Source: Blautia massiliensis (ex Durand et al. 2017)
GTDB taxonomy: Bacteria > Bacillota > Clostridia > Lachnospirales > Lachnospiraceae
Length of the DNA: 64,000 nucleotides
Direction of reading: 5' to 3'
NCBI RefSeq assembly: GCF_001487165.1
Contig: NZ_LN913006.1
Span: 1,511,651 to 1,575,650, forward strand
This document shows, piece by piece, positions 23,566 through 63,410 of this stretch (positions within the stretch are counted from its first letter, which is position 1; each line of letters starts with the position of its first letter). The position numbers and the translations under genes were made by a program. Under the pieces are notes generated by a model. The model worked only from the letters and a program-made list of their open reading frames with translations, did no database searches and was not told the DNA's origin.

Positions 23566-24099
23566 TCACTCTTCACAGGAAGCTTTGCACGGAGCATCAA
23601 AGCTCGGGTTAAAGGCATAGAAATTTTTGGCATCCAGCTGCTCCTGCACGGATCTCAGTGCTTCACCGAAACGCTGGAAATGGACTACCTCTCTTGCCCG
23701 AAGGAAACGGATGGGATCTGCAACCTCCGGGATATTTTTCACCACCCGGAGGATATTATCGTAGGTGGAGCGTGCCTTCTGTTCTGCTGCCAGATCTTCA
23801 AACAGATCCGTGATCGGATCACCCTTACTCTGGAATTCGCAGGCATTAAAGGGCACTCCACCTGCAGCCTGCGGCCAGATTCCCACCGTGTGGTCAATAT
23901 AATACGGCCCAAGTCCGCTGTTCTCGATTTCTTCCATAGAAAGATCCTTTGTCAGCTGATGGACAATGGTGGATACGATTTCCAAATGCGCCAGTTCTTC
24001 TGTTCCCACATCATTGAGCACTGCCGCGACCATCCGGTTCGGTGCGGTAAAACGCTGGGAAAGATACCGCATGGAAGCTCCTATTTCTCCGTCCGGCCC
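23566..24099 (-). CDS. cotJC: CotJC spore coat protein (Mn-catalase-like), C-terminal part of a split gene
   Basis: Codons 33 to the stop of cotJC, starting PDGEIGASMRYLSQRF and carrying the ferritin-like di-metal ligands (EELAHLE, AEQKARSTYDN, REVVHFQRF) of manganese catalases. The normal N-terminus is missing: upstream of the GGGCCGGA core at 24092-24099 the sequence is prophage DNA. The missing 32 codons lie at 63313-63410 beside cotJA/cotJB. Joining both at the core gives GGP-DGEIG in frame and a protein of about 207 aa. The open frame can be extended to a TTG at 24111 through prophage sequence, but there is no ribosome binding site, so this half should be silent until excision. Confidence 0.9.
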   Translation of the reverse strand, partial: GPDGEIGASMRYLSQRFTAPNRMVAAVLNDVGTEELAHLEIVSTIVHQLTKDLSMEEIENSGLGPYYIDHTVGIWPQAAGGVPFNACEFQSKGDPITDLFEDLAAEQKARSTYDNILRVVKNIPEVADPIRFLRAREVVHFQRFGEALRSVQEQLDAKNFYAFNPSFDAPCKASCEE

Positions 24100-24121
24100 A
24101 CCTGAGTACAATAACAGATAA
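24092..24121. other. Left attachment site of the prophage (attL)
   Basis: The core TCCGGCCC (24092-24099) is followed on the prophage side by ACCT and the arm GAGTACAATAACAGATAA (24104-24121). The other prophage end carries the matching inverted arm with two substitutions. Left of the core the cotJC coding sequence continues. Confidence 0.85.
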
Positions 24122-24149
24122 TTTAACTTTCCGAATGATGATACAATCT

Positions 24150-24179
24150 GTCCGGCAGTGGGTACCTGCCGGACTTTTT
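24150..24179 (+). terminator. Hairpin terminator at the left prophage end
   Basis: GTCCGGCAG (24150-24158) pairs with CTGCCGGAC (24166-24174) and is followed by TTTTTC on the plus strand. It lies between the endolysin stop and attL. The U-tract favours plus-strand reading, which would stop host or recombinase-side transcripts entering the circularised phage; it may also act after the endolysin. Confidence 0.6.
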
Positions 24180-24192
24180 CTACAATAGGAAG

Positions 24193-25638
24193 TTATTTTG
24201 TGTTGGTTTTCATGTGTTCGATCACTCTTTTCCAGGAATCAATACCGCAGGTTCCATTTGCCTTTACGCCTGTGTTTTTCTGGAAAACTTTCAGGGATGT
24301 TTCTGTATCGTCTCCGAAATTGCCATCCACAGTAACACCAAGTACAGACTGCAGCACAGAAACTGCAACGCCGGAATTCCCTTTCCGGATGATTGGAAGC
24401 TGGGTCTCAAACTTTCCCGTCAGAACTACTGCCTTTTTTGAAGTCTGTACCGGATACACTGCTTTTCCGTTCCAGTCATAGATGGTGTATCCCTGTTTCC
24501 ACTCTTTCTTTGCATTCTCAAGGCTCTTGTATGCTCCGATCTGGCTCTTGCTGTCAGCCCAGGACTTTCTTGTGCGATAGTACTTATCTACCGTCGGTGT
24601 GGCGGTCTTAGCTCCGATCAGCTGCTTGAACCGGTTCCAGTCACCTTTTGCTCGAATTGCTGACGGGCAGTTCTTTGCACATACATCATAATGCTGCACA
24701 ACTCTGTCTGCCGGGATTCCCAGCTGTTTCATAAGCTGTTTGCACACCTGGACTGTATTCTGGAAAGCTTTCTCATAGTTATAGCCTGCCTGGACGCACA
24801 TCTCGATCCCTACTGAATTTCTGTTGTTGACAGTACCAAACAGCCGACCGCCGTAGTTAACCCCTACGTGCCATGCGCCACGGTTATATGGAAGCGCCTG
24901 ATACGCCTCTGTGTCATCCACATATACATGTGCGGAATAGCCTTTAAAGTTGCCATCATGCTGAGCCTTAGCATGCGCTTTCGCATTTGCACCCTTGGCA
25001 TAGTTATCTGTGTTGTGAATTACGATATATGCCGGTGTCTGGCCTGCATAGCTGTTATTGTTACTGATAAGACTTGTGTTGATATTCATGGTTGTACTCT
25101 CCTTTTCTGTTTTTGATGTCTTATTTGATGCCTTAATGGATAATATGCTATTCAGAATATTAATGATCTTCTGGCCGTAATTCCGGCCGGATGCCCACCC
25201 CTGACCTTTTGGATTCTCCTGAATGCCCAGATGCTCCACGTGCTCTGCACAGCCTCTGTTGACGTATGTATAGCGCGGATCCACGCAACGATTCTTTAGT
25301 CGGTCTGTGGATGCGTAGGCCTGCAGGTGCTGGATCTGTGCTCGGATGCCCTCTGCCGGGGTTTTGAAACTGTTGCCCTTCATGCCGATTTTAGTCACGC
25401 CCATTCCACAGAAGTTGTTCTGGCTGAGCGTCACCGCGGATCCGCTGAAAGTGAAGTTCCCAGTTTCCAAGCAAGACTGAGCAAAAGCAATGTCACCACG
25501 GACTCCTTCTGCCGCACCTTCTGCGATATACAGAGAAATCATCTTGATGACCGAATCGGACACCTTTGGGTTTACTTTTTTGATATAAGCCCGCATCTGT
25601 TCAATGCTGACCTGTGATTTTCCCATGATCTTCAGCAT
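24193..25638 (-). CDS. Endolysin: glucosaminidase + amidase + peptidoglycan-binding domain
   Basis: The 481-aa lysis enzyme has an N-terminal glucosaminidase domain (about 10-165; FAQSCLETGNF with the catalytic Glu, NNFCGMG), a T/K/S-rich linker, an N-acetylmuramoyl-L-alanine amidase type 2 domain (about 200-335; IVIHNTD, WHVGVNYGG, and H/C ligands in VVQHYDVCAKNCP), an SPOR-like segment, and a C-terminal peptidoglycan-binding domain (about 410-475). The start at 25638 follows AGAGGAG; an in-frame TTG/ATG upstream is less well placed. A strong internal ribosome binding site before codon 184 could yield a separate amidase. It follows the holin genes. Confidence 0.9.
   Translation of the reverse strand: MLKIMGKSQVSIEQMRAYIKKVNPKVSDSVIKMISLYIAEGAAEGVRGDIAFAQSCLETGNFTFSGSAVTLSQNNFCGMGVTKIGMKGNSFKTPAEGIRAQIQHLQAYASTDRLKNRCVDPRYTYVNRGCAEHVEHLGIQENPKGQGWASGRNYGQKIINILNSILSIKASNKTSKTEKESTTMNINTSLISNNNSYAGQTPAYIVIHNTDNYAKGANAKAHAKAQHDGNFKGYSAHVYVDDTEAYQALPYNRGAWHVGVNYGGRLFGTVNNRNSVGIEMCVQAGYNYEKAFQNTVQVCKQLMKQLGIPADRVVQHYDVCAKNCPSAIRAKGDWNRFKQLIGAKTATPTVDKYYRTRKSWADSKSQIGAYKSLENAKKEWKQGYTIYDWNGKAVYPVQTSKKAVVLTGKFETQLPIIRKGNSGVAVSVLQSVLGVTVDGNFGDDTETSLKVFQKNTGVKANGTCGIDSWKRVIEHMKTNTK
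25087..25105 (-). promoter_or_regulatory. Internal ribosome binding site and start within the endolysin gene
   Basis: AAAGGAGAG stands 7 to 9 nt before an in-frame ATG at 25089 (codon 184, NINTSLISNNNSY), exactly between the glucosaminidase and amidase domains. Starting there would give a 298-aa amidase plus cell-wall-binding protein. Secondary translation products of this kind are known in some clostridial phage endolysins. Confidence 0.6.
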
Positions 25639-25668
25639 ATTGTTTTCTCCTCTCAAAAAAGAGGACGA

Positions 25669-26001
25669 TCACTCGCCCTCTGAATCCTTATATTTTGTTC
25701 TATCCCAGATTTCCTTAACTTTTTCCCAACCCCCGGTTGCAACTAAATAAACGATAAATGCCGCAATGACTGATGCTGCGATGTAGTACCAGGTAACTGC
25801 AGCTTTATAATATGTGCACATGACCATCAGTGCCAGTGGACACAGGATCATAGATGATACAAGCGCCACAATGCTGGTCTGGATGTTCTTCAGTCCCGGA
25901 AGGTCTTTGATTACCTGCACAATAGCTGATACGATGAAAGCCAGAATGCCGATCAGGGCAAGGGCGTAAGTTACATACTGTGTAATTGTATTAATATTCA
26001 T
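25669..26001 (-). CDS. Phage holin
   Basis: The 110-aa protein begins MNINTITQYVTYALALIGI and has a hydrophobic N-terminal segment (about 8-33) and one or two more (about 45-65, 70-92), ending in a charged tail WDRTKYKDSEGE. This layout and position between tail genes and the endolysin fit a phage holin. The start at 26001 has GGAG at 7 nt; the ATG at 26007 overlaps the upstream gene. Confidence 0.82.
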   Translation of the reverse strand: MNINTITQYVTYALALIGILAFIVSAIVQVIKDLPGLKNIQTSIVALVSSMILCPLALMVMCTYYKAAVTWYYIAASVIAAFIVYLVATGGWEKVKEIWDRTKYKDSEGE

Positions 26002-26003
26002 GA

Positions 26004-26306
26004 TCATTCTCCTTTTCTTTTGATATGTAATTCTTCAATTTCCTGTTTCATTTTTGTTACCATGCCGTTCCCGCCAAGTTCATGATAAGCCTCATACATC
26101 TCACAAAAGTTCTGATAAGCATAAGATGGGATATCTCCCATTTTCATGTACTTTGAATGGTATTCGATCATCTGAACACGAAGCAAGAGCATGGTTCCCT
26201 TACTATTTGCATCCCGGTCTTTTTTCTGGTTTTTTAGAAGCCAGACGATGTATCCTAAAACAATCGGAAGTGCAATAACGTATGTCTGTGTAAGCATTTC
26301 TTTCAA
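26004..26306 (-). CDS. Small membrane protein of the lysis module
   Basis: The 100-aa protein has one N-terminal membrane helix (about 7-24, VIALPIVLGYIVWLL) followed by a basic and then amphipathic cytosolic domain (MIEYHSKYMKMGDIPSYAYQNFCEMYEAYHELGGNG). Its position just upstream of the holin suggests a second holin, antiholin or holin-associated protein. Similar small proteins are common in Firmicutes prophage lysis modules. The stop overlaps the next gene. Confidence 0.75.
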   Translation of the reverse strand: MKEMLTQTYVIALPIVLGYIVWLLKNQKKDRDANSKGTMLLLRVQMIEYHSKYMKMGDIPSYAYQNFCEMYEAYHELGGNGMVTKMKQEIEELHIKRKGE

Positions 26307-26399: not shown

Positions 26400-26597
26400 C
26401 TATTCTGTGAGGTGATTATCTTCGATATATTTCTTAATTTCGCTGATATGATTTTTCAGTTCTTTGTTAAGTACGAGGAAGTTTTTCTTGTTATTCTGGC
26501 TGATGATTGTTCCGTCCTCAGCTACTTCCGAATAGGTGAATGAGATTCTTTCACCTTCTCCTGTGTTTAATACTATAAAACTCGTTAATACCTTCAT
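26400..26597 (-). CDS. Small phage protein of unknown function
   Basis: A 65-aa acidic protein (VLTSFIVLNTGEGERISFTYSE..., ending YIEDNHLTE). It overlaps the end of the large tail protein gene by 4 bp and is therefore co-translated with it. Small proteins of this size are frequent between tail and holin genes in Firmicutes phages. No motif allows a functional call. Confidence 0.7.
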   Translation of the reverse strand: MKVLTSFIVLNTGEGERISFTYSEVAEDGTIISQNNKKNFLVLNKELKNHISEIKKYIEDNHLTE

Positions 26598-28951
26598 ATT
26601 TCCTCTCTTTCTTCGATGAGCTTTTCTGTTTCTGCGATATACTCTTCGTCATATGCTATTTTTCTGAATCCTACTACTCTGTCCTCGCCTTCGTATCGGT
26701 TGTACTCATAACCTTTCTGTTTTGCCTTTAATTCCCAAAAAAATCTGAGACCAGGTGTACCAGTGACTATGAAGTAATCCGGGAAGCATTCTGATACGTA
26801 CAGATCTCCCTCACCGCATTTCTGCAAAAAAACATAGTACTGCATTTCTGTGTTAATCATCTCTTTTAAGATGTCCTCAATGTCAATGTAGCACTTTCCA
26901 TCCTCTGATATCTCTCCGGATCCAATGTCGCCGAAATGCGGCGTTGGGGTCTCATAGCAGTAAACGCCTTTTTCTCCGTAGTTTTCTGTTTGACGAACTG
27001 CCTGTTTAGTTCCAGCTGTCCGAAAACTATCTGCTACGTATAAATTCCCGTAAATGTTTGTATGTCCCATAGAGTGATGAGCTCCAGAGGAAAAACCCTC
27101 GCTGCTGTCATTTGTTTCTGCGTCTGATATCAGGTTTAATCTTTTTCCTCCACTGGCTCGCAGACCTCGTATATCAAATGTAATGTAGTCAGATGTTCCC
27201 GGTCCTTTTCGAAAAGTAAGGCGTTTATCCTTTGAAGAAAAAAATGTATCGTAATAGTTCTGTCCGATACCGCTTTCGGGGTTTGTAATGCTTTGATGCG
27301 ATATCGTATCTGATGAGATCTTGAACCCGGCTATGCTTGCTTTCAAAGAGTACAGATCATCTACTTTAATTTTTTCAGCTGTTACACTGTCAGCTGCAAG
27401 TGCGGCCGTGGTTATAGACTTAGACTTGATGTATGTTCCATTCCAGTACAACTTGCCGTCGGTCATGTACATACCCTGGATGTTTCCGTTGTTGGTCAGT
27501 AAATTGAATATATCTTCCGAAGAATATCCGTGCCGCACGTCTGGCCGGTAAATATAGATAGTTCCATCACCGGTGCTGATTGAATTGCTACCGCCGAATA
27601 TTATCAAACTTCCGGATGTTGCGATACTCGTGATATCCTTTATGAAGGAGAACTTTTTCCAGGTGGTGGTTAACGCTATGCTTTCACTGACCTTGTTAAA
27701 GGAGAATGTCACTGTCTGCGCTTTTGATGCCTTGGCCCAGAAGGTCACTGTATATCGGCCTGTGGCGTTGATTATCGTGTTTTCGTTTCTTTTTGAAGCC
27801 AAATAGCAATTCGCTGCGTCCGCAACGATAGCCACTGCATTTTTCCCACCATCTGGATCATTCTGTCCCGACTTGATTGTCCCGGCCGTGTTCCAGTATG
27901 CTTTAATGTTATCGTCAGAGAACCTGTATCCTTTGACGAGATTTCCTCCGGACGCTTCCAGCTTTCCGATTTCGGAAAGTGTGTAGCTTTTTGAGTAATC
28001 CTGTGAATCTTTAATCACTAACTTATCACATTCATCCGTGTACTTTTTTGCATCTGACAATGCCGTGATACTATAGTTTTTGATAGTATCCATAGCGTCG
28101 TTAGATATATCCGTGATACTGATGTTGCCCTGCAGGTCTATGATGTTTGCACGGATCTTGATCTGTTCTGCCGACTGATTGATCTGACTGATCAGTGATG
28201 CTTTGTCAGCCTTTTTTGTCCATTCCGTGCTCGATGTGACTGTTGATACTATAGCGCTGTCAGTGATCTTCTGAGACGCTTCTGTTTTCCATGTTTGCAA
28301 TTCGCCAACAGATTTTTTTGTGGCGTACGTAGATGATACCTTACTTTCAATGCTTCCTGCCTTCTGGTCAATCATTGACTGTGTTTGCGTAACTGTGGCA
28401 TATGACTTTAACAACTCTTTTGCTGAAGCCTGTGCGGTATCAACAGCTGCCTGTTTTGCCGCATCTGCATAGCCTTTTGCAGTTGCATCGGCAGATGCAA
28501 GCTTCTGTTGAACATCTGATCCTGTGGCATAAGTCTGTGATATAGTTGAGGACAGGCCATCTATCTTGGCCTGAATAGTAGCATTCATCGTGGCTGTGGT
28601 ACTATAGTTGTCCCGTAGATTTGTCTGCACCCGCGAAAGGTTTTGCGACATGCCATCCACACCTGATTTATACTCAGCAACTTTGGCATCGAGGTCTGTG
28701 TACTTTCCGCTGACAGCATCGTATTTGGACGTTATGTCTGTATAGGTCTGCTCAAGTCCATCTACAGTAAGCTTCACATCCGCAAGTTTGCTATACATAG
28801 TAACCTTGCTGTTCTGCAGTTCGAGGATTTCGCTCTCGCTGATCAGAGCTTCAATCTTGCCTTTGACAACAGAAAAATTTGTCTCATTTGCCTGGAAGCG
28901 CTTTAATATCGCGTCCGGTGCAAAAATATTCACTTCTTTCTGAAATCTCAT
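26594..28951 (-). CDS. Large phage tail / baseplate fibre protein
   Basis: The 785-aa protein has N-terminal coiled-coil repeats (about 10-270, SKYDAVSGKYTDLDAKV, ASADATAKGYADAAKQAA), a carbohydrate-binding-like beta module (about 325-465, ending in YIYRPDVRHG), a linker that resembles other siphovirus tail proteins (SKSITTAALAADSVTAEKIKVDDL), and a C-terminal domain that looks like chaperone or receptor-binding segments (DGKCYIDIEDILKEMINTEMQYYVFLQKCGEGDLYV). It is transcribed after the tail fibre cassette region. The start at 28951 follows AAAGGAGGTGAG. It does not share the variable cassettes. Confidence 0.8.
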   Translation of the reverse strand: MRFQKEVNIFAPDAILKRFQANETNFSVVKGKIEALISESEILELQNSKVTMYSKLADVKLTVDGLEQTYTDITSKYDAVSGKYTDLDAKVAEYKSGVDGMSQNLSRVQTNLRDNYSTTATMNATIQAKIDGLSSTISQTYATGSDVQQKLASADATAKGYADAAKQAAVDTAQASAKELLKSYATVTQTQSMIDQKAGSIESKVSSTYATKKSVGELQTWKTEASQKITDSAIVSTVTSSTEWTKKADKASLISQINQSAEQIKIRANIIDLQGNISITDISNDAMDTIKNYSITALSDAKKYTDECDKLVIKDSQDYSKSYTLSEIGKLEASGGNLVKGYRFSDDNIKAYWNTAGTIKSGQNDPDGGKNAVAIVADAANCYLASKRNENTIINATGRYTVTFWAKASKAQTVTFSFNKVSESIALTTTWKKFSFIKDITSIATSGSLIIFGGSNSISTGDGTIYIYRPDVRHGYSSEDIFNLLTNNGNIQGMYMTDGKLYWNGTYIKSKSITTAALAADSVTAEKIKVDDLYSLKASIAGFKISSDTISHQSITNPESGIGQNYYDTFFSSKDKRLTFRKGPGTSDYITFDIRGLRASGGKRLNLISDAETNDSSEGFSSGAHHSMGHTNIYGNLYVADSFRTAGTKQAVRQTENYGEKGVYCYETPTPHFGDIGSGEISEDGKCYIDIEDILKEMINTEMQYYVFLQKCGEGDLYVSECFPDYFIVTGTPGLRFFWELKAKQKGYEYNRYEGEDRVVGFRKIAYDEEYIAETEKLIEEREEI

Positions 28952-28979
28952 TTTTTCTCACCTCCTTTCTGTGAGATTA

Positions 28980-29276
28980 AATAGTAAGGTCTTCATTGAT
29001 ATTCGAAATCTCTCAACATTTTCTGTAAATATTAAGCTTAATACTTACACCTATGCATCGTTTCTCATGTACGGAGCGACTTCACGATATAATGGATTTA
29101 TGTACATTGTCTTTGTTGATGTTGCATCGGAAAAACGGACAGTAAATTTTATTAAAATTGCAGACTTTGTGGCAAGCAGGACTTTTTCGGGTACATACAG
29201 TGATGACACATCTACATTGACGATAAACGCCAGCGAAACCATATGGGGAGGCATTAAGATGCTGATGCTTAAATAG
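28980..29276 (+). other. Silent tail-fibre cassette 1 (plus orientation)
   Basis: Opens with AATAGTAAG (Asn-Ser-Lys) in frame with 98 codons ending TAG at 29274. The encoded C-terminus (VFIDIRNLSTFSVNIKLN..., ending GGIKMLMLK) is unrelated to the expressed one. It has no start codon or ribosome binding site of its own apart from a chance GTG at 28971. It can be expressed only after inversion next to the constant head at 32120. Confidence 0.82.
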
Positions 29277-29529
29277 TAACCGGTTTTCAATCTGTGAAAA
29301 AAATGTATCCGACTTAGATAATCCACCAGCTGCATTTATTTTAAATACGGATATAAATCCTAAAGGGCTTCCTAAATTGGACAGCAATGGGTGTTGCGTT
29401 ATACAACATAACCCTGGTAATGAAATATATACTGCACAATTGGCTTTTTCGTTCGGCTGCGAAAAAATAGCAATAAGGACGAAAAAGACTGATTCTTGGA
29501 GTGCTTGGAAATACTTTTCAGCTCAATAA
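29272..29529 (+). other. Silent tail-fibre cassette 2 (plus orientation)
   Basis: Opens AATAGTAAC (Asn-Ser-Asn), 85 codons, stop TAA at 29527. The product (RFSICEKNVSDLDNPPAAF...) ends DSWSAWKYFSAQ, a typical tail fibre C-terminus with spaced tryptophans. No start codon. It is missed by standard gene calling. Confidence 0.82.
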
Positions 29530-29826
29530 AATAGTAAGCGGTTCAAGGCCGATAGTTATATTATACATAGTGATGGCTCTACCAAAACAGTAAGCGTAAA
29601 GTGGAATAGTGTAAACAATCATATGACTTCGTTTCTACTAATTGATAACAACTGCATTACTTCTTTATACATAACAGGAAAGCAGACGGGAGCGACAGAA
29701 CTATCAAAAAAATCTGAATACGCAGCACCACCCGTACTTGATACTTCTTCGGCAACATTGAAAGTGACACTTATTCCCTGGAGCACAGCACTTTTAATCT
29801 GCTTTGATCCTGTGACTATAAGTTAA
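29530..29826 (+). other. Silent tail-fibre cassette 3, near-copy of the expressed cassette
   Basis: Opens AATAGTAAG, 98 codons plus stop TAA at 29824. It is about 95% identical over 297 bp to the cassette now joined to the tail fibre head on the minus strand. Most differences fall in one 45-bp window, changing about seven residues (KQTGATELSKKSEYAA here, KGAGVTTISGESEYAV in the expressed form). It lacks its own start; an internal ATG open frame is incidental. Confidence 0.85.
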
Positions 29827-30074
29827 ATAGTAACCGTATTTCCAGTTATGCAAGTGCCGCCTACGACAAGATTCCAGACGGCAACGAAATTGCTTTTTTC
29901 CGTGCTGGTGAAAACGCAATTGTAGTAAACGAAAACCTTACTATACCTCCGTGGGCATTCTGCATCTACATTCCATTCGGACGGGATGCTGGATTGATAG
30001 TTGTTGGAATTGGTAAAGTAATAGCAGCCTACCGGATGAACAGCACTTGGACATATCGTTACGACATAAAATAG
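29826..30074 (+). other. Silent tail-fibre cassette 4 (plus orientation)
   Basis: Opens AATAGTAAC, 82 codons, stop TAG at 30072. The product (RISSYASAAYDKIPDGNEIAF..., ending STWTYRYDIK) includes PPWAFCIYIPFG. No start codon. The stop codon of this cassette and the entry codon of cassette 5 share the same site. Confidence 0.82.
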
Positions 30075-30315
30075 TAAGACGCCATCAAAATACGTAAATT
30101 CTTTGGAAAACTACATGAAAAACGCTCCTATAGGCGTGAATTTTTGTGATTGTCAAGGAGCAGACGATAATCCCGACAAAGGTACTATGTCAATATGTAT
30201 GACATTTGTTAATGATGATCACAGTTGGGGAGTACAGTATCTTTTTGTATATGAGCGCATTCGTTACCGTATAATGAGTAATGGTGCTGTGGACGAATGG
30301 AGGCGAATAATATAG
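30070..30315 (+). other. Silent tail-fibre cassette 5 (plus orientation)
   Basis: Opens AATAGTAAG, 81 codons, stop TAG at 30313. The product (TPSKYVNSLENYMKNAPIG..., ending GAVDEWRRII) resembles known phage tail C-termini that end in a Trp-rich strand. Last plus-strand cassette before the recombinase gene; no further site is visible at its right end. Confidence 0.8.
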
Positions 30316-30406
30316 AAATTTTCCTCTTCCCATTTAATTGGTTTGTGAACAGAGCACTTCTTGTGGCAAAATAAAGGTAAAATAAAGCCATAGGAGGTGC
30401 ACTTTT

Positions 30407-31405
30407 TTGACAAAAATCGAAATGATACAATCGAGGATAATGGAGAGGATGCAGGATATACTTTCGAACGAACAGTTGCAGCACTTGGAGAACGTCTTGG
30501 CGATAGAATTCCACGGGATTGAGGTGCAGGAGGAGTGTACGCAGCTAGTAACGTCAGAAATTCACTGGCAGAAGATTCTTAGGACCTTCATTGCTTCGAA
30601 AAGAATCGAGAACTGCAGTCCAGGAACACTGGAAAGATATAATGACTGTGTAGTTAAGCTTGTCACGGCTCTGAATAAGCGGCTACAGGATATCACAACG
30701 AATGACATTCGATACTATCTTGCAATGTATCAGGAACAGAGGAAGATCTCTATGAGCTATATGGATACGATCAGACGGTACCTAAGTAGCTTTTTTGCAT
30801 GGATATCGGATGAGGGGTATATTAGCCGCAATCCTATGAGGCGCCTTAAGAAGATTAAGGTACCAAGAATGATTAAGAAACCCTTTACACAAGCTGAAAT
30901 GGAGCATCTGCGCTGTAACGCGGAGTGCCAGCGAGACATAGCAATCATGGCGTTCCTGTACAGTACAGCGGCCAGAATTGGGGAGGTTGTGAGACTGAAC
31001 CGGAAAGACATAAATTGGGCTAATAAGGAAGTGATTATATACGGAGAAAAGGGAAAGAAGGAGAGAAGAGTATACCTGACGGATGATTGTGCATATCATC
31101 TGCATAAGTATCTGTTATCCAGAGATGATACAAACCCGGCCTTGTTCGTGAGCAATAAGCGGCCACACACCCGCCTAGGAAAGCAGGCAATCCAGTCCAT
31201 GCTACGAACACTTGGCCAGAAGACGGAAATCCATGCACATCCGCATAAATTCCGTCGCACATTACTGACGGACGCCGGAAACCGAGGCATACCACTTCAG
31301 GAAATCCAGATGTATGCCGGACACCAGAAGCCAGACACGACTATGATGTATGTGACGGTAAGTGAAGAAAACGTCCGAGCATCATTCAGACGGTATATAG
31401 CCTGA
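30407..31405 (+). CDS. Tyrosine recombinase of the tail-fibre inversion module (Rci-like role)
   Basis: The 332-aa recombinase has an N-terminal SAM-like core-binding domain (about 60-150) and a catalytic domain with all key residues: Arg in STAARIGEVVRL, Lys in the YGEKGKKERRVYL beta hairpin, HxxR in HPHKFRRTLL, His in YAGHQKPD and the nucleophile Tyr in TTMMYVTVS. It starts at a TTG preceded by AGGAGG at 8 nt. It sits between plus- and minus-oriented cassettes and so would itself be flipped by inversions. The prophage integrates with a serine recombinase, so this enzyme is free for cassette shuffling. XerC/D-like or phage integrase use cannot be fully excluded. Confidence 0.88.
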   Translation: MTKIEMIQSRIMERMQDILSNEQLQHLENVLAIEFHGIEVQEECTQLVTSEIHWQKILRTFIASKRIENCSPGTLERYNDCVVKLVTALNKRLQDITTNDIRYYLAMYQEQRKISMSYMDTIRRYLSSFFAWISDEGYISRNPMRRLKKIKVPRMIKKPFTQAEMEHLRCNAECQRDIAIMAFLYSTAARIGEVVRLNRKDINWANKEVIIYGEKGKKERRVYLTDDCAYHLHKYLLSRDDTNPALFVSNKRPHTRLGKQAIQSMLRTLGQKTEIHAHPHKFRRTLLTDAGNRGIPLQEIQMYAGHQKPDTTMMYVTVSEENVRASFRRYIA

Positions 31406-31547
31406 ATTGTTCTAAATAAATAATATAATTTTTTGAAGCTGGCAGAAATGGCAGCCTTTTTGTCGTACCTAAAAAACTACAAAAAGGAAATGAGGATTAA
31501 GAAGATGTTCAGAGAGACGATATTATACAAAATGGGAAGGTGGCAAA

Positions 31548-31823
31548 TTAATTCACTCTTTCATATGAATACTTCGCCCATTTCGACCATACGTTAGGAT
31601 TTCCGGTGAAATCTCTAATATACATAACACCGCCGCCAATGATAACTATTTGTATATCATACACGTTCAGCAAAATTAATACGCCCCAATATTTCTCAGT
31701 GGATGATATTCCAGGAATGATTGCTCCGTCAATTTGATATTCCCCGGGTAATTTCCCGTTGCCCGCCCGGTATTCTTCCAGTGTGGTTGTACCGGTTATT
31801 TTCTCCCTATACCGCTTACTATT
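31548..31823 (-). other. Tail-fibre cassette 6 (minus orientation, downstream of the expressed one)
   Basis: On the minus strand it opens AATAGTAAGCGG right at the stop codon of the expressed fibre and runs 91 codons (RYREKITGTTTLEEYRAGNG..., ending SKWAKYSYERVN) to TAA at 31548. It has no start codon, so it is silent in the present arrangement, in tandem behind the expressed cassette. Confidence 0.82.
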
Positions 31824-32335
31824 TAACTTATAGTCACAGGATCAAAGCAGATTAAAAGTGCTGTGCTCCAGGGAATAAGTGTCACTTTCAATGTTGCAGA
31901 AGAAGTATCAAGTACGGGTGGTACTGCGTATTCAGATTCTCCTGATATTGTTGTCACTCCCGCCCCCTTTCCTGTTATATATAAAGAGGTAATGCAGTTG
32001 TTATCAATTAGTAGAAACGAAGTCATATGATTGTTTACACTATTCCACTTTACGCTTACTGTTTTGGTAGAGTCATCACTATGTATAATATAACTATCGG
32101 CCTTGAACCGCTTACTATTTAATTCATTAAGTGCGGCTGGAAGTGTCTTGGTTCCCTGATCTAATGCAAATGTTTGCGATGTCAAATTTTTGAGTATCTG
32201 GGTGGTCAAATCCTCAAGTGTGATAACACCACCCTCATTTGTGGTTGGGTCTACAAATATCAATTTCTTTCCTGTTGGTACTTCTTTTACTGTGGCCAAG
32301 GCATTTGCGTTCTGGCCGTCCTGCGGTAATGCCAT
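31823..32335 (-). CDS. Tail fibre protein: constant head joined to the expressed variable cassette
   Basis: The 170-aa protein has a constant N-terminal part of 72 codons (32120-32335; ALPQDGQNANALATVKEV, KKLIFVDPTTNEGG, ending PAALNEL) and a variable C-terminal part of 98 codons (31823-32119) that opens Asn-Ser-Lys at the recombination site. The head would anchor the fibre and the tail would bind the receptor. Six other cassettes can replace the tail by site-specific recombination. Ribosome binding site AAAGGAG precedes the ATG. It is between the Tal gene and the large tail protein in the late transcript. Confidence 0.88.
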   Translation of the reverse strand: MALPQDGQNANALATVKEVPTGKKLIFVDPTTNEGGVITLEDLTTQILKNLTSQTFALDQGTKTLPAALNELNSKRFKADSYIIHSDDSTKTVSVKWNSVNNHMTSFLLIDNNCITSLYITGKGAGVTTISGESEYAVPPVLDTSSATLKVTLIPWSTALLICFDPVTIS

Positions 32336-32368
32336 ATTATCTCCTTTCTGGTGCCCTGATCGGGCACC

Positions 32369-35300: not shown

Positions 35301-35500
35301 TTTTCGATTTCTTTAACAACAAATCGGTCTTCTTTTGTTTCTATGTACCCTTCAACCACAATAGCTGATCTGACATTTCTGTACGGTACTGAAAACGTAA
35401 GTGTCTTATCATCAAGCTCGATCGAGTTCTCGATACACAAATCACTGTATTTTCGCAAACCCTTCACGGGGACTTTATTTTTATCTAATATTCTAAGCAT
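32369..35500 (-). CDS. Tail-associated protein Tal / tail tip (prophage endopeptidase-type)
   Basis: The 1043-aa protein begins LRILDKNKVPVKGLRKYSDL and has an N-terminal gp18/Tal baseplate hub domain (about 1-370; YGKDGLTIETVNSGKIYLEN, DTVTLIDHVTGEKEKQRI) followed by a long coiled-coil/beta extension with repeated linkers and a C-terminal beta region (about 640-1043) with Ig-like character. Such proteins form the tail tip and contact the cell wall. Its place after Dit and before the tail fibre is standard for siphoviruses of Gram-positive hosts. Confidence 0.87.
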   Translation of the reverse strand: MLRILDKNKVPVKGLRKYSDLCIENSIELDDKTLTFSVPYRNVRSAIVVEGYIETKEDRFVVKEIEKSSEGTANITAQLDLESLEGKPFRTFRSEEQTIKAALQLAFTGTGWTVGECSVSKKRTLSMANVSALDVLKQALKTYRAEIKIDSKKQSIDIYPEIGSDKGVYFSDQLNLRKLTVQYSTYDFYTEIEPYGKDGLTIETVNSGKIYLENHQYSSKKKRCIWKDERYTIADSLKEDAAAKLADMSKPYVSYSADIVDLSRNSQKYSILQYEIGDTVTLIDHVTGEKEKQRIVSVKIYPEAPEKNSCTLANKVLTFDELAQKYEDTADTVDNITNDNGQIDGDAIDGIHSRQIIDLENGIIESAYIKELGVKYLDVSGKITAVEGEFGILKSNTAQFEETYTKRLEAVEGDIYTLRTTDFTAVNAKIGILDNEFGNIKVLLSGGAGIGEIQNIHLTSQNAVIDSALIRSAVMQTVSVADLLAGTISTNKFLIASDDGGIRIQGATQQWSDTDGTVRMQAGRDANGDFTFSLFDKTGKGILIDATGVKPDAIADGLIVNKMVSDSANIAASKLDINSLFTEINNSSKVIKSNRIWLDDSNQSLNQAYTKMSQNITRIGDTASSASDSASAATDAAKKAMETLSGISILDAIGASLNNDAHVVHTYADGTGGDYSSCYTVFSVFLGDTDVSDHIDEIKATTSPGIAGTWDPNLRKYQVTAMSTDSGYVDISALYGLESKVLLVGGKGLIISGKTMVVKSVGSWITKRFSVSKAKDGKIGLSYDLRASTQIIKKLKDDKTLEPANVTFSAFKNDNGMVSSYSGKFQIEESTDSGKTYNIKYGSTSPELMKVYTPSGPDVNIIKCSLYDESGVQLLDTQTVSIISDAAGLAKDIAAADKKAQEAKSAIETTSQEVANIQSSIKGFETELSQTITDLHGVTDGTLLYNAKYQDNGDGTTTISAVLYKAGKDVTKEYPAAWFAWSRRTESGEVFLQYGYSVTVNNNDYMFGGVVIGQFTRYIHMALVVGDKILVVGSKAICLQVDA

Positions 35501-35524
35501 GTTATCCTCCCCGCTTTTTCATGA

Positions 35525-35899
35525 TTATTTTGCTATTTCAAGTAAAGTCATAAGCTGATTTGGAGTTGCGTTCATTTTCTTGAATTCTTCTTCTGAAAAG
35601 CGCTCAACATTCACATCGGTTTCTGTATTCATCAACGTGGTGATTTCCGTGTTATATCCAGGGATATCTGTGATACGGATTCTTCCGTCTTCGTCCATGA
35701 CGATCTTGCCTTTTTCATCTTTTTCGCCATATTTTCTTAAGATATCGTTTTTAACTTTCAGAACAGGATTTAATACCTGAGTAAGGTTATAGTTGTTTCT
35801 TGCAATTTTAAGTGCGAGAACGGGATTATCAATTTCTTTATTTCCAACTGCCGTAAGCACGTTCTGCATGTTCTCAATCTTCTGATTTGTAAATCTCAT
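35525..35899 (-). CDS. DUF1617-like phage tail-region protein
   Basis: The 124-aa protein begins RFTNQKIENMQNVLTAVGNK and contains KIARNNYNLTQVLNPVLKVK. Proteins of this pattern are frequent between distal tail and Tal genes or nearby in siphovirus prophages and are usually annotated DUF1617. No catalytic motif; a structural or assembly role is likely. Confidence 0.7.
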   Translation of the reverse strand: MRFTNQKIENMQNVLTAVGNKEIDNPVLALKIARNNYNLTQVLNPVLKVKNDILRKYGEKDEKGKIVMDEDGRIRITDIPGYNTEITTLMNTETDVNVERFSEEEFKKMNATPNQLMTLLEIAK

Positions 35900-35911
35900 T
35901 TCAACTCTCCT

Positions 35912-39723: not shown

Positions 39724-39737
39724 CCTGTTCCACCTCC

Positions 39738-40288: not shown

Positions 40289-40300
40289 AATCTATCCCTC

Positions 40301-43782: not shown

Positions 43783-43794
43783 ATCAGTTCTCCT

Positions 43795-45766: not shown

Positions 45767-45787
45767 GTCAGTTTCCTCCTTTCTGCG

Positions 45788-49293: not shown

Positions 49294-49371
49294 GTAATAT
49301 CATAAAAGCACCTAACATAATGTCAGATGCTTTACAGAGGTGTGCTATTGGCCAGATATGGGTATATCTGA

Positions 49372-49440: not shown

Positions 49441-49554
49441 AAACCACTGTCTGTGGGTTGACAGTGGAATTTGCGAAAGGAGGATTTCATTTATTTTTCC
49501 TGAAATCCATTGTAATAATAACACAGATATTGTGTGTACTTCCATGTACTCTTT

Positions 49555-56709: not shown

Positions 56710-57468
56710 TCAATCCCTTCTATTCCCTGTTCTGACCAGTATGTAATGCCGGTATGCGTAGCCTGTCACCTTGTTTTTCCCATGTTTTACTGAACCAGGA
56801 ACAATCGCCCATCCCTTTGGTGGTTTCGGATCTCTCGGTATCCCCTGCCTGTCCACCAGGCTCCGTTTCTTTATCTCTTCTTTCTCCGGATCCTTGCGGA
56901 TCAGGTTTCTGGATGGGTGGTACCGTTTCAGGTCCTCTGGCTCATGTTCTTTTAACGGCTTGGTTATGTATTCTGCCAGTTCTCCGGAATCTACGTCATA
57001 TACTCTCTTCGTCTGTGCATGGCCATGGTTCCATAACATTTCCACTAGAAGCCCTGTATCTGTCTCATTGTTTGATTTCCGGTTGACCAGGATATGTACG
57101 TGGGGTCCGCCCTGCTTTCCAATCTCCAAGCGGTATATGTACTTCAACTCCCATCCATATTTTTTATACTTGTCCCGGAGCTTTCGAATGAATTTTGACA
57201 TATCTTTCTGCATCTGTTTCCAGGGCGGCCGTGAGCCTTTCTTGTACGTCAGCGTGAACCAGTAATCTCCTATTCCGAAATTCCATTTAATCAGACGGCG
57301 GACATCCCGTTCCCTTTTCCATTGGTTCTGTTTAGCAATCTCTTCCGGAGTGGCTTTTCTCCTCTTCTGTCTTTTCTGTCCCCTGGCTCCATATCTGCCC
57401 GTATGCTTTTCTTCAACTTCCCTGGTGTTCCCACAGTCCCAGATCCATCTTATATATCCACACTTCAT
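56710..57468 (-). CDS. Rolling-circle replication initiator-like protein (HUH Rep)
   Basis: 252 aa. The HUH motif GGPHVHILVN (about 117-126) and a downstream Tyr motif GELAEYITKPL (about 165) match HUH endonucleases that nick DNA to start replication; WFTLTYKKGSRPP is the usual first motif. N-terminal basic region (GARGQKRQKRRKATPEEIAK). Starts best at ATG 57468. A phage with a HUH Rep may replicate through a rolling-circle or plasmid-like mode. Confidence 0.82.
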   Translation of the reverse strand: MKCGYIRWIWDCGNTREVEEKHTGRYGARGQKRQKRRKATPEEIAKQNQWKRERDVRRLIKWNFGIGDYWFTLTYKKGSRPPWKQMQKDMSKFIRKLRDKYKKYGWELKYIYRLEIGKQGGPHVHILVNRKSNNETDTGLLVEMLWNHGHAQTKRVYDVDSGELAEYITKPLKEHEPEDLKRYHPSRNLIRKDPEKEEIKKRSLVDRQGIPRDPKPPKGWAIVPGSVKHGKNKVTGYAYRHYILVRTGNRRD

Positions 57469-57489
57469 AAGCAATCCTTGTCCTATCTC

Positions 57490-58002: not shown

Positions 58003-58140
58003 TTATGCTGTCTTTTCGTAGTTCATTCCTTCCAGGGCTTCTTTTACACGCCGGAGGATCAACTCCGACGCTTCTTCTTTTGTGAGCTCTCTTTTTTCTC
58101 CGTTTACCTGGATTCTTGTGATAAATTCAATATCTTTCAT
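58003..58140 (-). CDS. 45-aa small phage protein
   Basis: KDIEFITRIQVNGEKRELTK EEASELILRR (two parts) ending MNYEKTA. Ribosome binding site GAGGTG at 9 nt from ATG 58140. First of a run of three small early genes. Similar short proteins with RVKEALEGM endings are common next to phage repressors. Unknown function. Confidence 0.6.
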   Translation of the reverse strand: MKDIEFITRIQVNGEKRELTKEEASELILRRVKEALEGMNYEKTA

Positions 58141-58221
58141 GTTTATCACCTCTGTTATATCTTATGAATGTATTGATTTTTGTGTTTATAAAATTTTCAC
58201 TACTTTGTCGAACGCTTTTTC

Positions 58222-59461: not shown

Positions 59462-59899
59462 GTGAGATGCTTGAATCGTGACATCAAGAAGATCGTTTCG
59501 TACTATAAAAGAAAAACAGGAACATCAGACCCTTTCGCCATTGCCGATCAGCTTGGTATTCTCTACCAGATCTGTAACCTGCAATTCGAAGGATGCTACA
59601 TGTTCCTGAAAAATCACCGCTACATATTCATTAATAGAAATCTTCCGGAACACGAACAACGTCTGGTCATGGCTCATGAGCTTGGTCATGCTCTCCTGCA
59701 CCGGAAAGAGAACTGTTACTTTATTAGAAATAAAACGCTTTTATTAAATTCAAAGAAGGAAATCGAAGCGAATAAGTTTGCTATGGAGCTACTGTTGCCG
59801 GATTCATTCTTAGATGAATACAGAGACTTTACTATTGATCAAATTTCCAGAATGACTGGATATGAACAAAAATTAATCCAACTTCGCATTGAAAATTAG
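59462..59899 (+). CDS. ImmA/IrrE-type metallopeptidase
   Basis: 145 aa with the zinc motif VMAHELGHALLH (about 71-82) and downstream ligand region EIEANKFAMELLLPDSFL. Cleaves cognate XRE repressors in ICEBs1-like systems. The first possible start is GTG at 59462, directly after the repressor stop; TTG at 59471 has AGGTGAG at better spacing. Either way translation is coupled to the repressor. Confidence 0.88.
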   Translation: MRCLNRDIKKIVSYYKRKTGTSDPFAIADQLGILYQICNLQFEGCYMFLKNHRYIFINRNLPEHEQRLVMAHELGHALLHRKENCYFIRNKTLLLNSKKEIEANKFAMELLLPDSFLDEYRDFTIDQISRMTGYEQKLIQLRIEN

Positions 59900-59917
59900 T
59901 ATTTATTGGAGAATATT

Positions 59918-61510
59918 ATGGAAAAGAACGTATTAGATAAGATTGTTGATAGTAAGAAACTTCCTGTTTTGTTTATAGGGTCTGGAATATCCAAAAGATA
60001 TTTATTTAATTATCCTACTTGGGACGAACTGCTTGAATTATCATTTAAAAAATATAATTCAGATATTTTCCAGTTGCAAAAACATAAAGATGCCCTATTT
60101 CGCCAAAATTTATCCGACTTTGAAATAAATGCTAAACTAGCATCTATCATAGAAAATGAATTTAATGCCGCGTTTTTTGACCGAAAAATAAAATTAAATA
60201 TCGGTAACGCCAAAAACCCCGAATGGGTAAAAAGAGGGATTTCACCTTATAAGATGTTTCTTTCTTCATATTTTAAAAAGATGCATTTACGCAGAGGTCA
60301 TTTAATAGAACAAGAGCTTGAACGCTTTAAGCAACTAAAGAACAAAATTTCAGCAATCATTACAACAAATTACGATTTATTTCTTGAAACATTTATTTTT
60401 CCCGATGACTATACAGTATTTACAAACCAAACTCAGCTTTTCAATTCGGATAGTTACAATATCGCTGAAATATATAAAATACATGGTTCTGCAACTGATG
60501 CTAATTCTATTATCATTACTGAACAAGATTATAGAACTTTTAATGATTCTCGCAAACTTATTATTGCCAAAATGTTAACATTATTCGCTGAATCTCCAAT
60601 TGTATTCTTAGGATATTCTTTTACTGACGAAAATATTCAAGGAATAATTAGCGACTTTTTAGGTTGTTTATCACCAATTCAGCTTCAAAGTATTCATAAC
60701 CACTTTATTTTCATTAGCTATAAAAAAGGAGAATTAAATTTACAACAAATTCAACGAACCATTACCACTCGTCAAGGAAACGAAATTCCTATTACGGAAA
60801 TTCAAACTGATAATTATTTAAAGGTATATGAATCACTTAACAAAATTACACCCGGTATTTCGCCTGTCAAAATCAGAGCAACAAAACGAATAGTTAAAAA
60901 CATCGTTGATAACAATTTATCTTCTGATAATGTAGAAGCAACTATTGTAGGATTAGATGATTTAAATAATATGAATTTTTCTAATAAACCTCTAGCAATT
61001 GCAATTGGTTATCGTGAAAGTATATTAAACAAATTTGGATATGGCATTTTTGATGATACACTGATATTTGAAGACATTTTATATGACAACAAACATTTTG
61101 ATGCTGACTCCATGTGCTCGGATCGATTTAAGTCAATTCCTCATACAAGATTACTTCCTGTATTCAAATATGTAAAAGCAACAACTTTACATATAGATCC
61201 ACTTTCACACTTAGGTGCCTATATAGAAAAACATAATTCTATTGACTTAATTATTACTAAAAAAATTCAAAAATCATTAAAGAACGTTCCAACCATTAAT
61301 AATTTTAATGATCTTTTAGCTGAAATAGATAATGTAACAGGTCTTAATAAAAAAGCCGGACTATTATTAAAAAATATTACTTCTTTTAATATTTCAAAGA
61401 TACGAGAAATATGTAAACGCTTATATTCCTCTGATAAAGAAGAAATTAAAACCTCTACTCATTTCAAAAGATGTGTTATGTATATTGATTTAATGGAAAA
61501 TTATTTCTAA
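59918..61510 (+). CDS. SIR2-domain protein, probable phage-encoded defence NADase
   Basis: 530 aa. An N-terminal SIR2-like domain (about 10-290) shows PVLFIGSGISKRYLFNYPTW (NAD-binding), ITTNYD, the catalytic His in YKIHGSATDANS, and PIVFLGYSFTDENIQ. The C-terminal part (about 300-530) has no recognisable domain. AT content is clearly higher than in neighbouring genes, a sign of separate acquisition. SIR2 proteins of this kind (DSR, Thoeris ThsA, others) deplete NAD+ on infection. Expressed with the repressor in lysogens, it could exclude other phages. Start at ATG 59918 after TTGGAG. Confidence 0.82.
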   Translation: MEKNVLDKIVDSKKLPVLFIGSGISKRYLFNYPTWDELLELSFKKYNSDIFQLQKHKDALFRQNLSDFEINAKLASIIENEFNAAFFDRKIKLNIGNAKNPEWVKRGISPYKMFLSSYFKKMHLRRGHLIEQELERFKQLKNKISAIITTNYDLFLETFIFPDDYTVFTNQTQLFNSDSYNIAEIYKIHGSATDANSIIITEQDYRTFNDSRKLIIAKMLTLFAESPIVFLGYSFTDENIQGIISDFLGCLSPIQLQSIHNHFIFISYKKGELNLQQIQRTITTRQGNEIPITEIQTDNYLKVYESLNKITPGISPVKIRATKRIVKNIVDNNLSSDNVEATIVGLDDLNNMNFSNKPLAIAIGYRESILNKFGYGIFDDTLIFEDILYDNKHFDADSMCSDRFKSIPHTRLLPVFKYVKATTLHIDPLSHLGAYIEKHNSIDLIITKKIQKSLKNVPTINNFNDLLAEIDNVTGLNKKAGLLLKNITSFNISKIREICKRLYSSDKEEIKTSTHFKRCVMYIDLMENYF

Positions 61511-61678: not shown

Positions 61679-61698
61679 TCGATTTGTCAAGAAATTTC

Positions 61699-61830: not shown

Positions 61831-61867
61831 GTACCCTTTTTTACATAATTTTAACCGAGGTGATAAA

Positions 61868-63292
61868 ATGCAAAAAAGAATGGCTGCTTTATATGTCCGT
61901 GTTTCCACAGAAGATCAGGCGGAATTGTCTCCGGATGCTCAAAAAAGATTGTTGCTGGAATACGCAAAGAAGAACGATCTCATAACCTGTGAAGAATTTA
62001 TTTTCTGTGAGAGTGTTTCCGGCCGTCACGCCCAAAAACGTCCAGAGTTTCAAAAAATGATTGCAATGGCAAAACAATCCTCTCATCCCTTTGATGTGAT
62101 ACTGGTATGGAAATTCTCTAGGTTTGCTAGAAACCAGGAAGAATCCATCGTATATAAAAGTATGCTCAAGAAAGATGATGTGGAAGTTATCAGTATCTCT
62201 GAGCCGCTCGTAGACGGTCCGTTTGGTTCTCTTATTGAGCGTATCATCGAATGGATGGATGAATATTATTCCATACGGCTCTCCGGTGAGGTAAAGCGTG
62301 GCATGAAAGAGAAAGCTTTGCGCCATGGTTATCAGAGCACCCCTCCCCTTGGTTATAAGGCGGTCGGTGGCGGAAAGCCATTCGTGATTGACGAAGCCAG
62401 CTACGCTATTGTGTCCTATGCTATGAATTTATACGATTGCGAAAATATGGATGAAACCGCTATAGCAAGGAAGTGCAATGATCTAGGATATCGCACTAAG
62501 CGTGGAAACCTCTTTGAACGAAGAAGTATTGACCGTATTTTACGAAATCCTTTTTACTGTGGGACAGTCACATGGAATGGAATGGAATTTGAAGGTTCTC
62601 ATGAGGTCAGAATCTCAAAGGAACGTTTTCAGGAGCGTCAAAAGCTGATCCAGGCCAGGATGCGCCCAGCCAAGTCCCGTAGCGTATCCACATGCAGGCA
62701 CTGGCTGTCTGGACTTTTGAAATGTTCGATCTGTGGCGCCACTCTTGCCTATACCGGTGGCGGCAAAGATGGCTATCATTATTTCAACTGCTGGCAATAT
62801 GCAAAGGGCTATCACAGAGGCACTTCTTCTATTCCGGTAAAAAAGGCTGAAGAAGCTGTTATTGAATATTTTGACAAGATTCTTGAAGGTGCTGACTTTT
62901 CTTATGTCCGGAAAAGTAATTATTCTGTCAATAATGAAGTTACAGTTGATCAGATTCACAAAGAGTTATCCCGGATAGATATGAAAAGCAAACGAATCCA
63001 TGATGCTTATGAAAGTGGAATTGACTCTCTTCAGGAATACAAAGAAAATAAAGAACGTCTGAATGATGATCGATCAAAGTTAGAGTTTGAACTTCACAAC
63101 CTACTGCGCAAGAAAAAAGAAAAGTTTACAGATAAATCAGAGGTTTTGAAAGAGATTAAATCTGTGAATGACGTACTCAAGGATCCGGATGTTGGATATG
63201 AAGAAAAAGGCATGCTTATCCGGACTATTGTTGATCAAATCGTCTGGAATAAAGAAAATAACAAGATGTATTTTGATATTATTGTACATTGA
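61868..63292 (+). CDS. Large serine recombinase (prophage integrase/excisionase)
   Basis: 474 aa. N-terminal resolvase domain (about 5-150) with catalytic Ser13 in LYVRVSTEDQAELS and Arg in WKFSRFARNQEE; recombinase domain (about 165-265); zinc ribbon (about 280-325: LLKCSICGATLAYTGGG ... YHYFNCWQYAKG); C-terminal coiled coil (about 360-450). Starts at 61868 after GAGGTG; the upstream in-frame extension covers the leader. Ends 20 bp before the attachment core, as usual for such integrases. It should recombine the cotJC-attL/attR sites; a directionality factor is needed for excision. Confidence 0.94.
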   Translation: MQKRMAALYVRVSTEDQAELSPDAQKRLLLEYAKKNDLITCEEFIFCESVSGRHAQKRPEFQKMIAMAKQSSHPFDVILVWKFSRFARNQEESIVYKSMLKKDDVEVISISEPLVDGPFGSLIERIIEWMDEYYSIRLSGEVKRGMKEKALRHGYQSTPPLGYKAVGGGKPFVIDEASYAIVSYAMNLYDCENMDETAIARKCNDLGYRTKRGNLFERRSIDRILRNPFYCGTVTWNGMEFEGSHEVRISKERFQERQKLIQARMRPAKSRSVSTCRHWLSGLLKCSICGATLAYTGGGKDGYHYFNCWQYAKGYHRGTSSIPVKKAEEAVIEYFDKILEGADFSYVRKSNYSVNNEVTVDQIHKELSRIDMKSKRIHDAYESGIDSLQEYKENKERLNDDRSKLEFELHNLLRKKKEKFTDKSEVLKEIKSVNDVLKDPDVGYEEKGMLIRTIVDQIVWNKENNKMYFDIIVH

Positions 63293-63295
63293 TTT

Positions 63296-63320
63296 TTTAT
63301 CTGCTATTGCACTCCGGCCC
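63296..63320. other. Right attachment site of the prophage (attR)
   Basis: Core TCCGGCCC at 63313-63320 and, on the prophage side, the arm TTATCTGCTATTGCACTC ending at 63314. This is the inverted counterpart of the left-end arm with 16 of 18 positions matching. Right of the core, cotJC codons 1-31 follow on the minus strand. Confidence 0.85.
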
Positions 63321-63410
63321 GCCATACTGGCTGGATATAAACTGTGCCAGCTTTGCGTTAGGCGTCTTGATATTTACAGGATACTGGAGTCTTTTTTCAT
63401 AATTCCACAT
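63313..63410 (-). CDS. cotJC: CotJC spore coat protein, N-terminal part of a split gene
   Basis: Starts ATG at 63410, 3 bp after the cotJB stop, with AAGGAGG in the cotJB 3' end. Encodes WNYEKRLQYPVNIKTP and AKLAQFISSQYGGP, the conserved CotJC N-terminus, then meets the attachment core. In the present arrangement the frame runs on through prophage DNA as E-C-N-S-R and stops at 63297, giving a useless 37-aa peptide. The rest of the gene is at 23566-24099. Confidence 0.9.

Follow-up and report, generated by a model that had tools for sequence, protein, structure and literature searches.

In Bacillus subtilis the prophage SPbeta lies in the spore-surface gene spsM and encodes a serine recombinase; SPbeta is active, and its timing is set by a small factor with a mother-cell promoter (PMC4191935; this and the other papers cited are drawn on in part). 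The promoter of the factor gene, sprB, has a perfect -10 and an imperfect -35 sequence, and a separate promoter acts on DNA damage (PMC4191935). The skin element of Clostridioides difficile comprises 19 genes and interrupts sigK; its small factor CD1234 is under sigma-E and SpoIIID, but its recombinase CD1231 is not (PMC5025042). The present analysis concerns a 64,000-nucleotide stretch of the Blautia massiliensis genome (the window), in which the spore-coat gene cotJC is split by a prophage. From the layout of the locus and from its relatives it is quite probable that this prophage is excised in the mother cell by its own recombinase together with a predicted 45-amino-acid (aa) factor, and that the gene is thereby rejoined.

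The window element resembles SPbeta in that a prophage with a serine recombinase occupies a spore-surface gene, and differs in its target, cotJC, and in that its factor is only predicted. As in skin, where the small factor but not the recombinase is under sporulation control, the family of elements at the same position of cotJC (site A, below) displays a similar promoter contrast; unlike skin, the window element lies in cotJC and is an apparently complete phage. In both comparisons the small factors are likened by role and not by sequence. Identification of the element as a sigK skin was rejected, since it sits in cotJC and the best sigK-like gene of the same genome is one uninterrupted frame. 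The sigma-E/K-like genes there are all in single frames and fall below the cut-off of the sigK model (best 277 bits against 299, 212 aa).

Other described systems are more distant. The gin element in gerE of Bacillus cereus is no phage but encodes a serine recombinase and lies in a sporulation gene, and the smallest cotJC elements are apparently of the same sort; however, gin is 28.6 kb long, has three recombinases and occupies another gene (PMC5595907). The yin element in yabG of Clostridium botulinum is prophage-like, its sporulation gene is restored and a circular form is described, but it is reported as unique to one strain (PMC10747680), whereas elements in cotJC occur in tens of genera. 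Phage phi027 of C. difficile lies beside a cotJC-like gene, which is described as adjacent, unlike the split gene here (PMC11222575). In heterocyst-forming cyanobacteria elements likewise leave nitrogen-fixation genes at differentiation; the organisms and genes are others, and the likeness is one of description only (PMC4874684). The window element appears to be of a known kind, that of skin and SPbeta, and what seems new is the target cotJC and the several insertions per gene. Among the matches listed in the parts of the open-access literature covered, with supplements (including the recombinase catalogue PMC10083194) outside the scope of the search, none describes cotJC as a split target.

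The interrupted cotJC gene of the window

The cotJC gene is interrupted after codon 32 by a 39,221-bp prophage at positions 24092–63312. The 5′ part (63313–63410, minus strand) consists of 32 codons and two bases, including the junction core, and begins with the ATG at 63410. It stands directly behind cotJA (63692–63964, minus strand, PF11007) and cotJB (63414–63731, minus strand, PF12652), both over the Pfam cut-off, in an operon that spans 63313–63964 on the minus strand. The 3′ part, core included, is at 23566–24099 on the minus strand and matches Mn_catalase (PF05067) with 121 bits against a cut-off of 27. The identity of the gene as cotJC, a Mn catalase, is given by the PF05067 domain within a cotJ operon, and solved Mn catalases align with it. 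The Pfam matches to CotJA, CotJB and Mn_catalase confirm the arrangement proposed in an earlier sequence-only reading, i.e. two cotJC halves at these positions with a prophage between them.

An 8-bp core, GGGCCGGA on the gene strand, is present at both junctions. In the window the string TCCGGCCC is found at 24092–24099 (3′-part junction) and 63313–63320 (5′-part junction), and additionally at 2233 and, reversed, at 53288, where these are chance copies. When the halves are fused at the core, the protein reads SQYGGP-DGEIGAS across the join and the frame stays open for 207 codons, which agrees with the core, the join and the length of about 207 aa that had been predicted. The “exact in-frame restoration” of that reading is correct but not diagnostic: the join alone is weak proof because any precise excision restores its target, and for this reason it was rejected as proof of developmental excision.

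Comparison with a close relative carrying an intact cotJC had been suggested as a check, and it bears out the join. G016, the closest cotJC relative in the genus search (100% over 207 residues), has an uninterrupted cotJC region that matches the joined region of the window along 1214 bp, with 96.7% identity and zero gaps. The predicted attB matches the empty site of G016 at 67 of 68 bp. Because the region and attB are contiguous in G016, the core-joined cotJC is more than a chance construct. A search of the window's own genome with the 3′ part as query gave a single match, the window 3′ part itself, and thus no second cotJC copy. The locus therefore displays an interrupted sporulation gene, shared-core junctions that restore it and a large serine recombinase at the junction, which are three of the marks of a sporulation gene-intervening element.

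The recombinase gene (61868–63292, plus strand) encodes Resolvase, Recombinase and Zn-ribbon domains and ends 20 bp from the right core. The mechanical open reading frame has 563 aa from the GTG at 61601; the likely start is the ATG at 61868, behind the ribosome site GAGGTGAT, which would give 474 aa. In the attP reconstructed from the element ends, arms of the sequence TATCTGyTATTGyAC stand in inverted orientation on either side of a 14-nucleotide centre. Such inverted arms around a centre are expected for a large serine recombinase.

The attP pattern was found in IMG/VR record 2900028168_000002 (L005), where the element ends meet at GGTGGACCGGA; cotJC is absent from the searched pieces of this record. 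Record 2882371534_000001 (L006) is the same element integrated in cotJC and is 99.1% identical to L005 over 6,659 bp. The other arm of the L005 attP aligns with the exon-1 side of a Blautia parvula element, with 78.9% identity over 90 bp. Thus an element related to that of the window occurs both within cotJC and with a joined attP. The circular form of L005 is only putative because the record ends without overlap. L232, a second match to the attP pattern, is GC-rich and by eye unrelated, and was set aside.

Split cotJC genes in related bacteria

Of 64 genomes searched in the genus, 44 have a cotJC match, and in these cotJC is split in 24, intact in 19 and at a contig edge in one; one side of a break sufficed for a gene to be counted as split (e.g. 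G033, G052). The breaks fall near codons 28–33, 60–68, 133–136 and 173–178, termed sites A, B, C and D, with 11, 9, 4 and 3 occurrences in the genus, respectively. Near each break there is a segment in alignment with conserved Mn-catalase motifs, and these presumably hold the metal ligands. A proposal that conservation within cotJC peaks at the attB sites was rejected, as 30-bp windows placed at sites A, B, C and D are at the 58th, 53rd, 94th and 19th percentile among ten genus sequences.

In the family, 130 genomes from 130 genera were searched and, among the matches listed, at least 87 have a cotJC match: 35 are split with both sides seen, 48 have a full-length copy, accompanied by partial pieces in G160 and G190, and four are ambiguous. 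The breaks listed are 17 at A, 14 at B, six at C and two at D, and four genomes are broken at two sites. When the search is extended to the order, 81 of 118 genomes have a match; among the matches listed, the same break places are found in other families, and G296 and G301 have four cotJC pieces each, mostly on separate contigs.

Blautia parvula NBRC 113351 has a complete chromosome, and its cotJC is in four pieces that span 131 kb across the origin (94583–94486, 87652–87553, 6233566–6233344 and 6210525–6210294). The gaps are 6,844, 101,032 and 22,826 bp, and the joined pieces give 210 open codons. The join at A is an 11-bp repeat and that at C an 8-bp repeat; for B, where repeats of at least six bases do not fit, a 3-bp repeat was chosen by hand as the join. 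Two recombinases of different clades flank the gap at site B, which may therefore contain several elements. At the other extreme, cotJC elements as small as 2–4 kb are found at the same sites and have room for few genes besides the recombinase.

Several loci display further peculiarities. Elements inside cotJC at L174, L172 and L176/L177 carry a metabolic cargo, namely a Na/Pi cotransporter, an MttB-family methyltransferase and, by eye, two serine-dehydratase-like genes. At L118 (3961–8079) the cotJC parts are oppositely oriented, as after an inversion; at G085:C11:1041-1645 cotJC is apparently frame-shifted near codon 115; and in G102 the 3′ part is present twice (G102:C68).

The sporulation genes of the hosts were tallied as well. 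In the window's own genome Spo0A is over the family cut-off and SpoIVA is present. By hand tally SpoIVA is found in 41 of the 64 genus genomes, namely in 21 of 24 with split, 17 of 19 with intact and one of one with edge-placed cotJC, and in two of 20 without a cotJC match.

Relatives of the window recombinase numbered 155 in contigs taken from one genome per species, of which the best 80 were kept. Their titles name Blautia, Roseburia, Butyrivibrio and other Lachnospiraceae, with some Eubacterium and Clostridia labels. By hand count a cotJC piece is present in 53 of these best 80 loci and absent from 27. When later loci are added, 84 of 125 recombinase open reading frames are within 1.3 kb of a cotJC break and the other 41 are not, a few of the latter being placed by hand for the tree. 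Among 58 site-A assignments, 41 have the recombinase gene next to exon 2 and on the same strand as cotJC, 15 have it next to exon 1 and on the opposite strand, and two have another placement; from the 41 and 15 placements, the orientation of attP relative to the recombinase gene is probably flipped among site-A loci.

The recombinase tree (122 rows) was built by a quick method and has several long branches and weak deep joins. Site labels require 17 changes on this tree compared with a mean of 53.7 when shuffled. Site D recombinases are one clade (three rows), site C enzymes one clade with five of the six labelled rows, and site B enzymes two separate clades of 15 and six rows, the first with a few other labels. 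Those of site A fall mainly into one clade, within which enzymes with other targets form a clade of their own. Three rows labelled B or C proved on inspection to be site-A enzymes beside a short exon. Thus five recombinase clades are found at four break positions in one gene.

In a sister clade of recombinases the gene that is split is a different one, probably of the cell wall or the spore, as seen by eye at 10 of 15 loci inspected (L146, L130, L139, L128, L141, L137, L127, L129, L140 and L154). The 5′ part of this gene is weakly SpoIID-like, below the cut-off, and the 3′ part has a PG_binding_1 domain. Related recombinases at L149 (7438–7971) and L147 (7434–7967) abut fragments of a polysaccharide deacetylase (PdaB-like, below cut-off) and of an M23 peptidase.

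The register of the junction repeats was examined at 36 junctions in single loci with no frame constraint; four duplicate loci were skipped and one inverted case was set aside. The longest repeat is in exact register at 22 of these 36. A separate junction analysis with an imposed frame was not counted as evidence.

Selection on split genes is clearest in one species pair. G056 and G028 have the same small element at site B. Synonymous divergence (dS) is 0.80, 0.81 and 1.02 in the element genes and 0.99 in a flanking gene, and therefore the element was most simply inherited from the ancestor of the two. The cotJC exons of this pair (197 codons) differ by 65 synonymous and nine nonsynonymous changes, with a dS of 0.91 and a nonsynonymous to synonymous ratio (omega) of 0.022; that of the recombinase is 0.144. 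Over 60 codons around site A, cotJC omega is 0.021 in the split pair L121/L124 (Roseburia titles), and over 60 codons it is 0.013 in the split pair L148/L150 (Butyrivibrio titles). In the split pairs L101/L103 and L093/L090 synonymous sites are saturated and omega is not obtainable. Of five intact pairs, two give 0.017 and 0.037 and three are saturated. Both cotJC parts are thus under strong purifying selection while split, as in intact genes. Since constraint is seen on a gene that is still split, routine rejoining is the best explanation.

The candidate directionality factor and other prophage genes

A scan of the whole element with a promoter profile trained on cotJA gave 12 hits, some of them overlapping, compared with 2.8 expected. 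It pointed to two similar small open reading frames, one in L089 and one in the window at 58003–58140 (minus strand, 45 aa). By iterated profile search the family was detected in 97 loci, each a recombinase locus, and 42 other loci, many of them short, gave no match. Where the recombinase is of site A or “other”, 53 of 91 loci have it; none of 11 loci with only B and neither of two with only D enzymes does. One of five C-labelled loci has it, L095, where the enzyme is actually of site A. Among 15 members, three match phrog_26314, a family without assigned function (best E 2e-6); other PHROG and Pfam matches of the 15 are single and weak, and a search of solved structures gave nothing convincing (best E 0.014). 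The co-occurrence with the recombinase makes the 45-aa protein a candidate recombination directionality factor.

The upstream regions were compared in 59 of the 97 loci, those with a usable start and 140 bp upstream, after removal of ten duplicates. The sequence CATAnnnTA is found at -75 to -18 in 21 of the 59 (mean 1.7 and maximum 7 in 200 shuffles), in eight of 232 control open reading frames with ribosome sites and in 11 of 112 recombinase starts before correction. With a G[GT]ACA[AG] box 8–12 bp upstream it is found in 17 of 59 (shuffled mean 0.025, maximum 2). CATAnnnTA is presumably of the sigma-E/K -10 type, and GGACAA is taken to resemble a SpoIIID site. In the window the predicted mother-cell-type -10 box, CATAAGATA, is at 58158–58166 on the minus strand, upstream of the candidate factor. 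Such boxes would be read by sigma-E or sigma-K.

With corrected starts the box is upstream of two of 31 “other” recombinases and of none of the 12 in the first site-B clade (B1), none of the six of C and none of the three of D. In the second site-B clade (B2; L189, L192, L159 and L194) the recombinase gene itself is often behind a CATAnnnTA box (four of six), a wiring unlike that of site A.

The gene sets of a temperate tailed phage, i.e. head, packaging, tail, lysis and integration, are all present in the element, and from the subset of genes searched it is apparently a complete temperate siphophage. Homology searches identify an endolysin (24193–25656), the major head protein, head protease, portal and large terminase (42322–47485) and a replication initiation protein (56710–57474); a holin-like gene (25669–26007) has a weak holin match. 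Tail genes at 26594–40915 include a Dit-like gene (35912–36640) and the major tail protein (40301–40915), with a 1027-aa open reading frame at 36640–39723 outside the search. The endolysin, holin-like, tail, head, protease, portal, terminase and replication initiation genes are on the minus strand. All 1547 phage records that match the terminase do so at less than 60% identity. A tRNA-Cys is predicted at 49370–49441 on the minus strand. Beside the recombinase, at 59462–61510 on the plus strand, are an ImmA/IrrE-like peptidase and then a SIR2-domain protein (PADLOC PDC-S25, 379 bits), a pair that is candidate defence cargo.

Explanations and significance

In the proposed mechanism the large serine recombinase of the prophage (24,092–63,312) would cut that prophage out of the mother cell's chromosome during sporulation. 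The 45-aa protein, as the predicted directionality factor, would turn the integrase into an excisionase, and excision would rejoin cotJC as one 207-codon frame, with the phage presumably kept in the forespore. In the lytic cycle the same small protein would be made from phage promoters. The wiring would be as in SPbeta and the C. difficile skin, where a sporulation-controlled small protein acts on an available integrase.

A number of observations weigh against this explanation. The longest repeat is out of register at 14 of the 36 junctions, and these short or shifted repeats are compatible with a two-base crossover. In L121/L124 one element gene has a dS of 0.27 compared with 0.69 for cotJC and 1.03 for the recombinase; the element may have been partly exchanged, and common descent of the whole element is less clean. 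Upstream of the window's candidate factor there is a -10 box and no G[GT]ACA[AG] box; a strict -10 box is missing in 38 of the 59 relatives, where some starts are probably misplaced. The 59 regions include near-copies (e.g. L032/L039/L051 and L063/L137), and therefore the 21 that bear the box are not all independent. The -10 box is only modestly enriched upstream of clade A recombinases themselves (nine of 58 with corrected starts; shuffles 1.9, maximum 7). The window recombinase fails the strict -10 pattern, and the cotJA-trained profile is not enriched upstream of recombinase genes (clade A 4.69 compared with 4.39 shuffled; window 2.1 with 4.1; cotJA control 13.75 with 0.1). That profile test used some starts too far upstream, and the -10-box test was redone with corrected ones. 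The joined attP belongs to a relative whose recombinase is 62% identical and is uninformative on timing. Lastly, the window element is absent from G016 and so is probably a recent insertion, to whose own cotJC parts the selection test does not apply. Of the skin-type developmental excision in the sequence-only reading, the layout and the comparative evidence for the family stand, and the timing for the window's own element is inferred. For the family, developmental excision is supported by selection, the clades at four sites, the small protein with its -10 boxes and the joined attP.

An ordinary temperate phage may instead have taken cotJC as its attB, so that the lysogen loses CotJC and excision follows only on induction, with no link to sporulation. 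The phage modules, the absence of the element from G016 and the restoration of the frame by any precise excision all fit such a phage. It is nonetheless unlikely, as it leaves unexplained the selection on cotJC genes that stay split across species, the 2–4 kb elements at the same sites and the mother-cell-type -10 boxes of the linked small protein. That cotJC is dispensable and decaying in these lineages, with insertions piling up free of cost, is far less probable still. A second full-length cotJC-like gene does occur in seven of the 35 split family genomes (own marking, among the matches listed) and in G193, and C. difficile cotCB and cotD mutants are described as having lower catalase activity and no significant coat defect (cited in PMC11222575). 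However, omega is 0.013–0.022 in split pairs, as in intact genes, the joined frames are open and the window's own genome gave no second copy with the 3′-part query. Separate expression of both parts and assembly of the fragments, with excision unneeded, accords with the conservation of both parts, but four break places, pieces down to about 31 codons and the four pieces of B. parvula make it the least probable of these alternatives.

If excision of the prophage at sporulation is true, spore-coat assembly in a large family of gut bacteria would routinely involve the excision of mobile elements, and such excision would be more than an oddity of a few Bacillus and Clostridium strains. A multiply cut cotJC would need stitching in each sporulating cell. 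A broader view, favored with less assurance than excision at the window itself, is that the fragmentation of cotJC extends across the Lachnospiraceae and the order to which they belong, with five distinct recombinase clades at four places in about 620 bp. The mother cell of B. parvula would have to excise several elements to assemble the gene, losing about 130 kb, and each element would bring a sporulation-timed switch of its own; this would amount to programmed genome elimination in a dying cell. In genomes that are likely to make the protein, cotJC may be annotated as broken or missing. The small-protein family would be a new source of candidate directionality factors. Split and intact cotJC genes within one genus would offer a comparative system for why phages choose mother-cell genes, for several recombinases in one gene and for the switch from integrase to excisionase.

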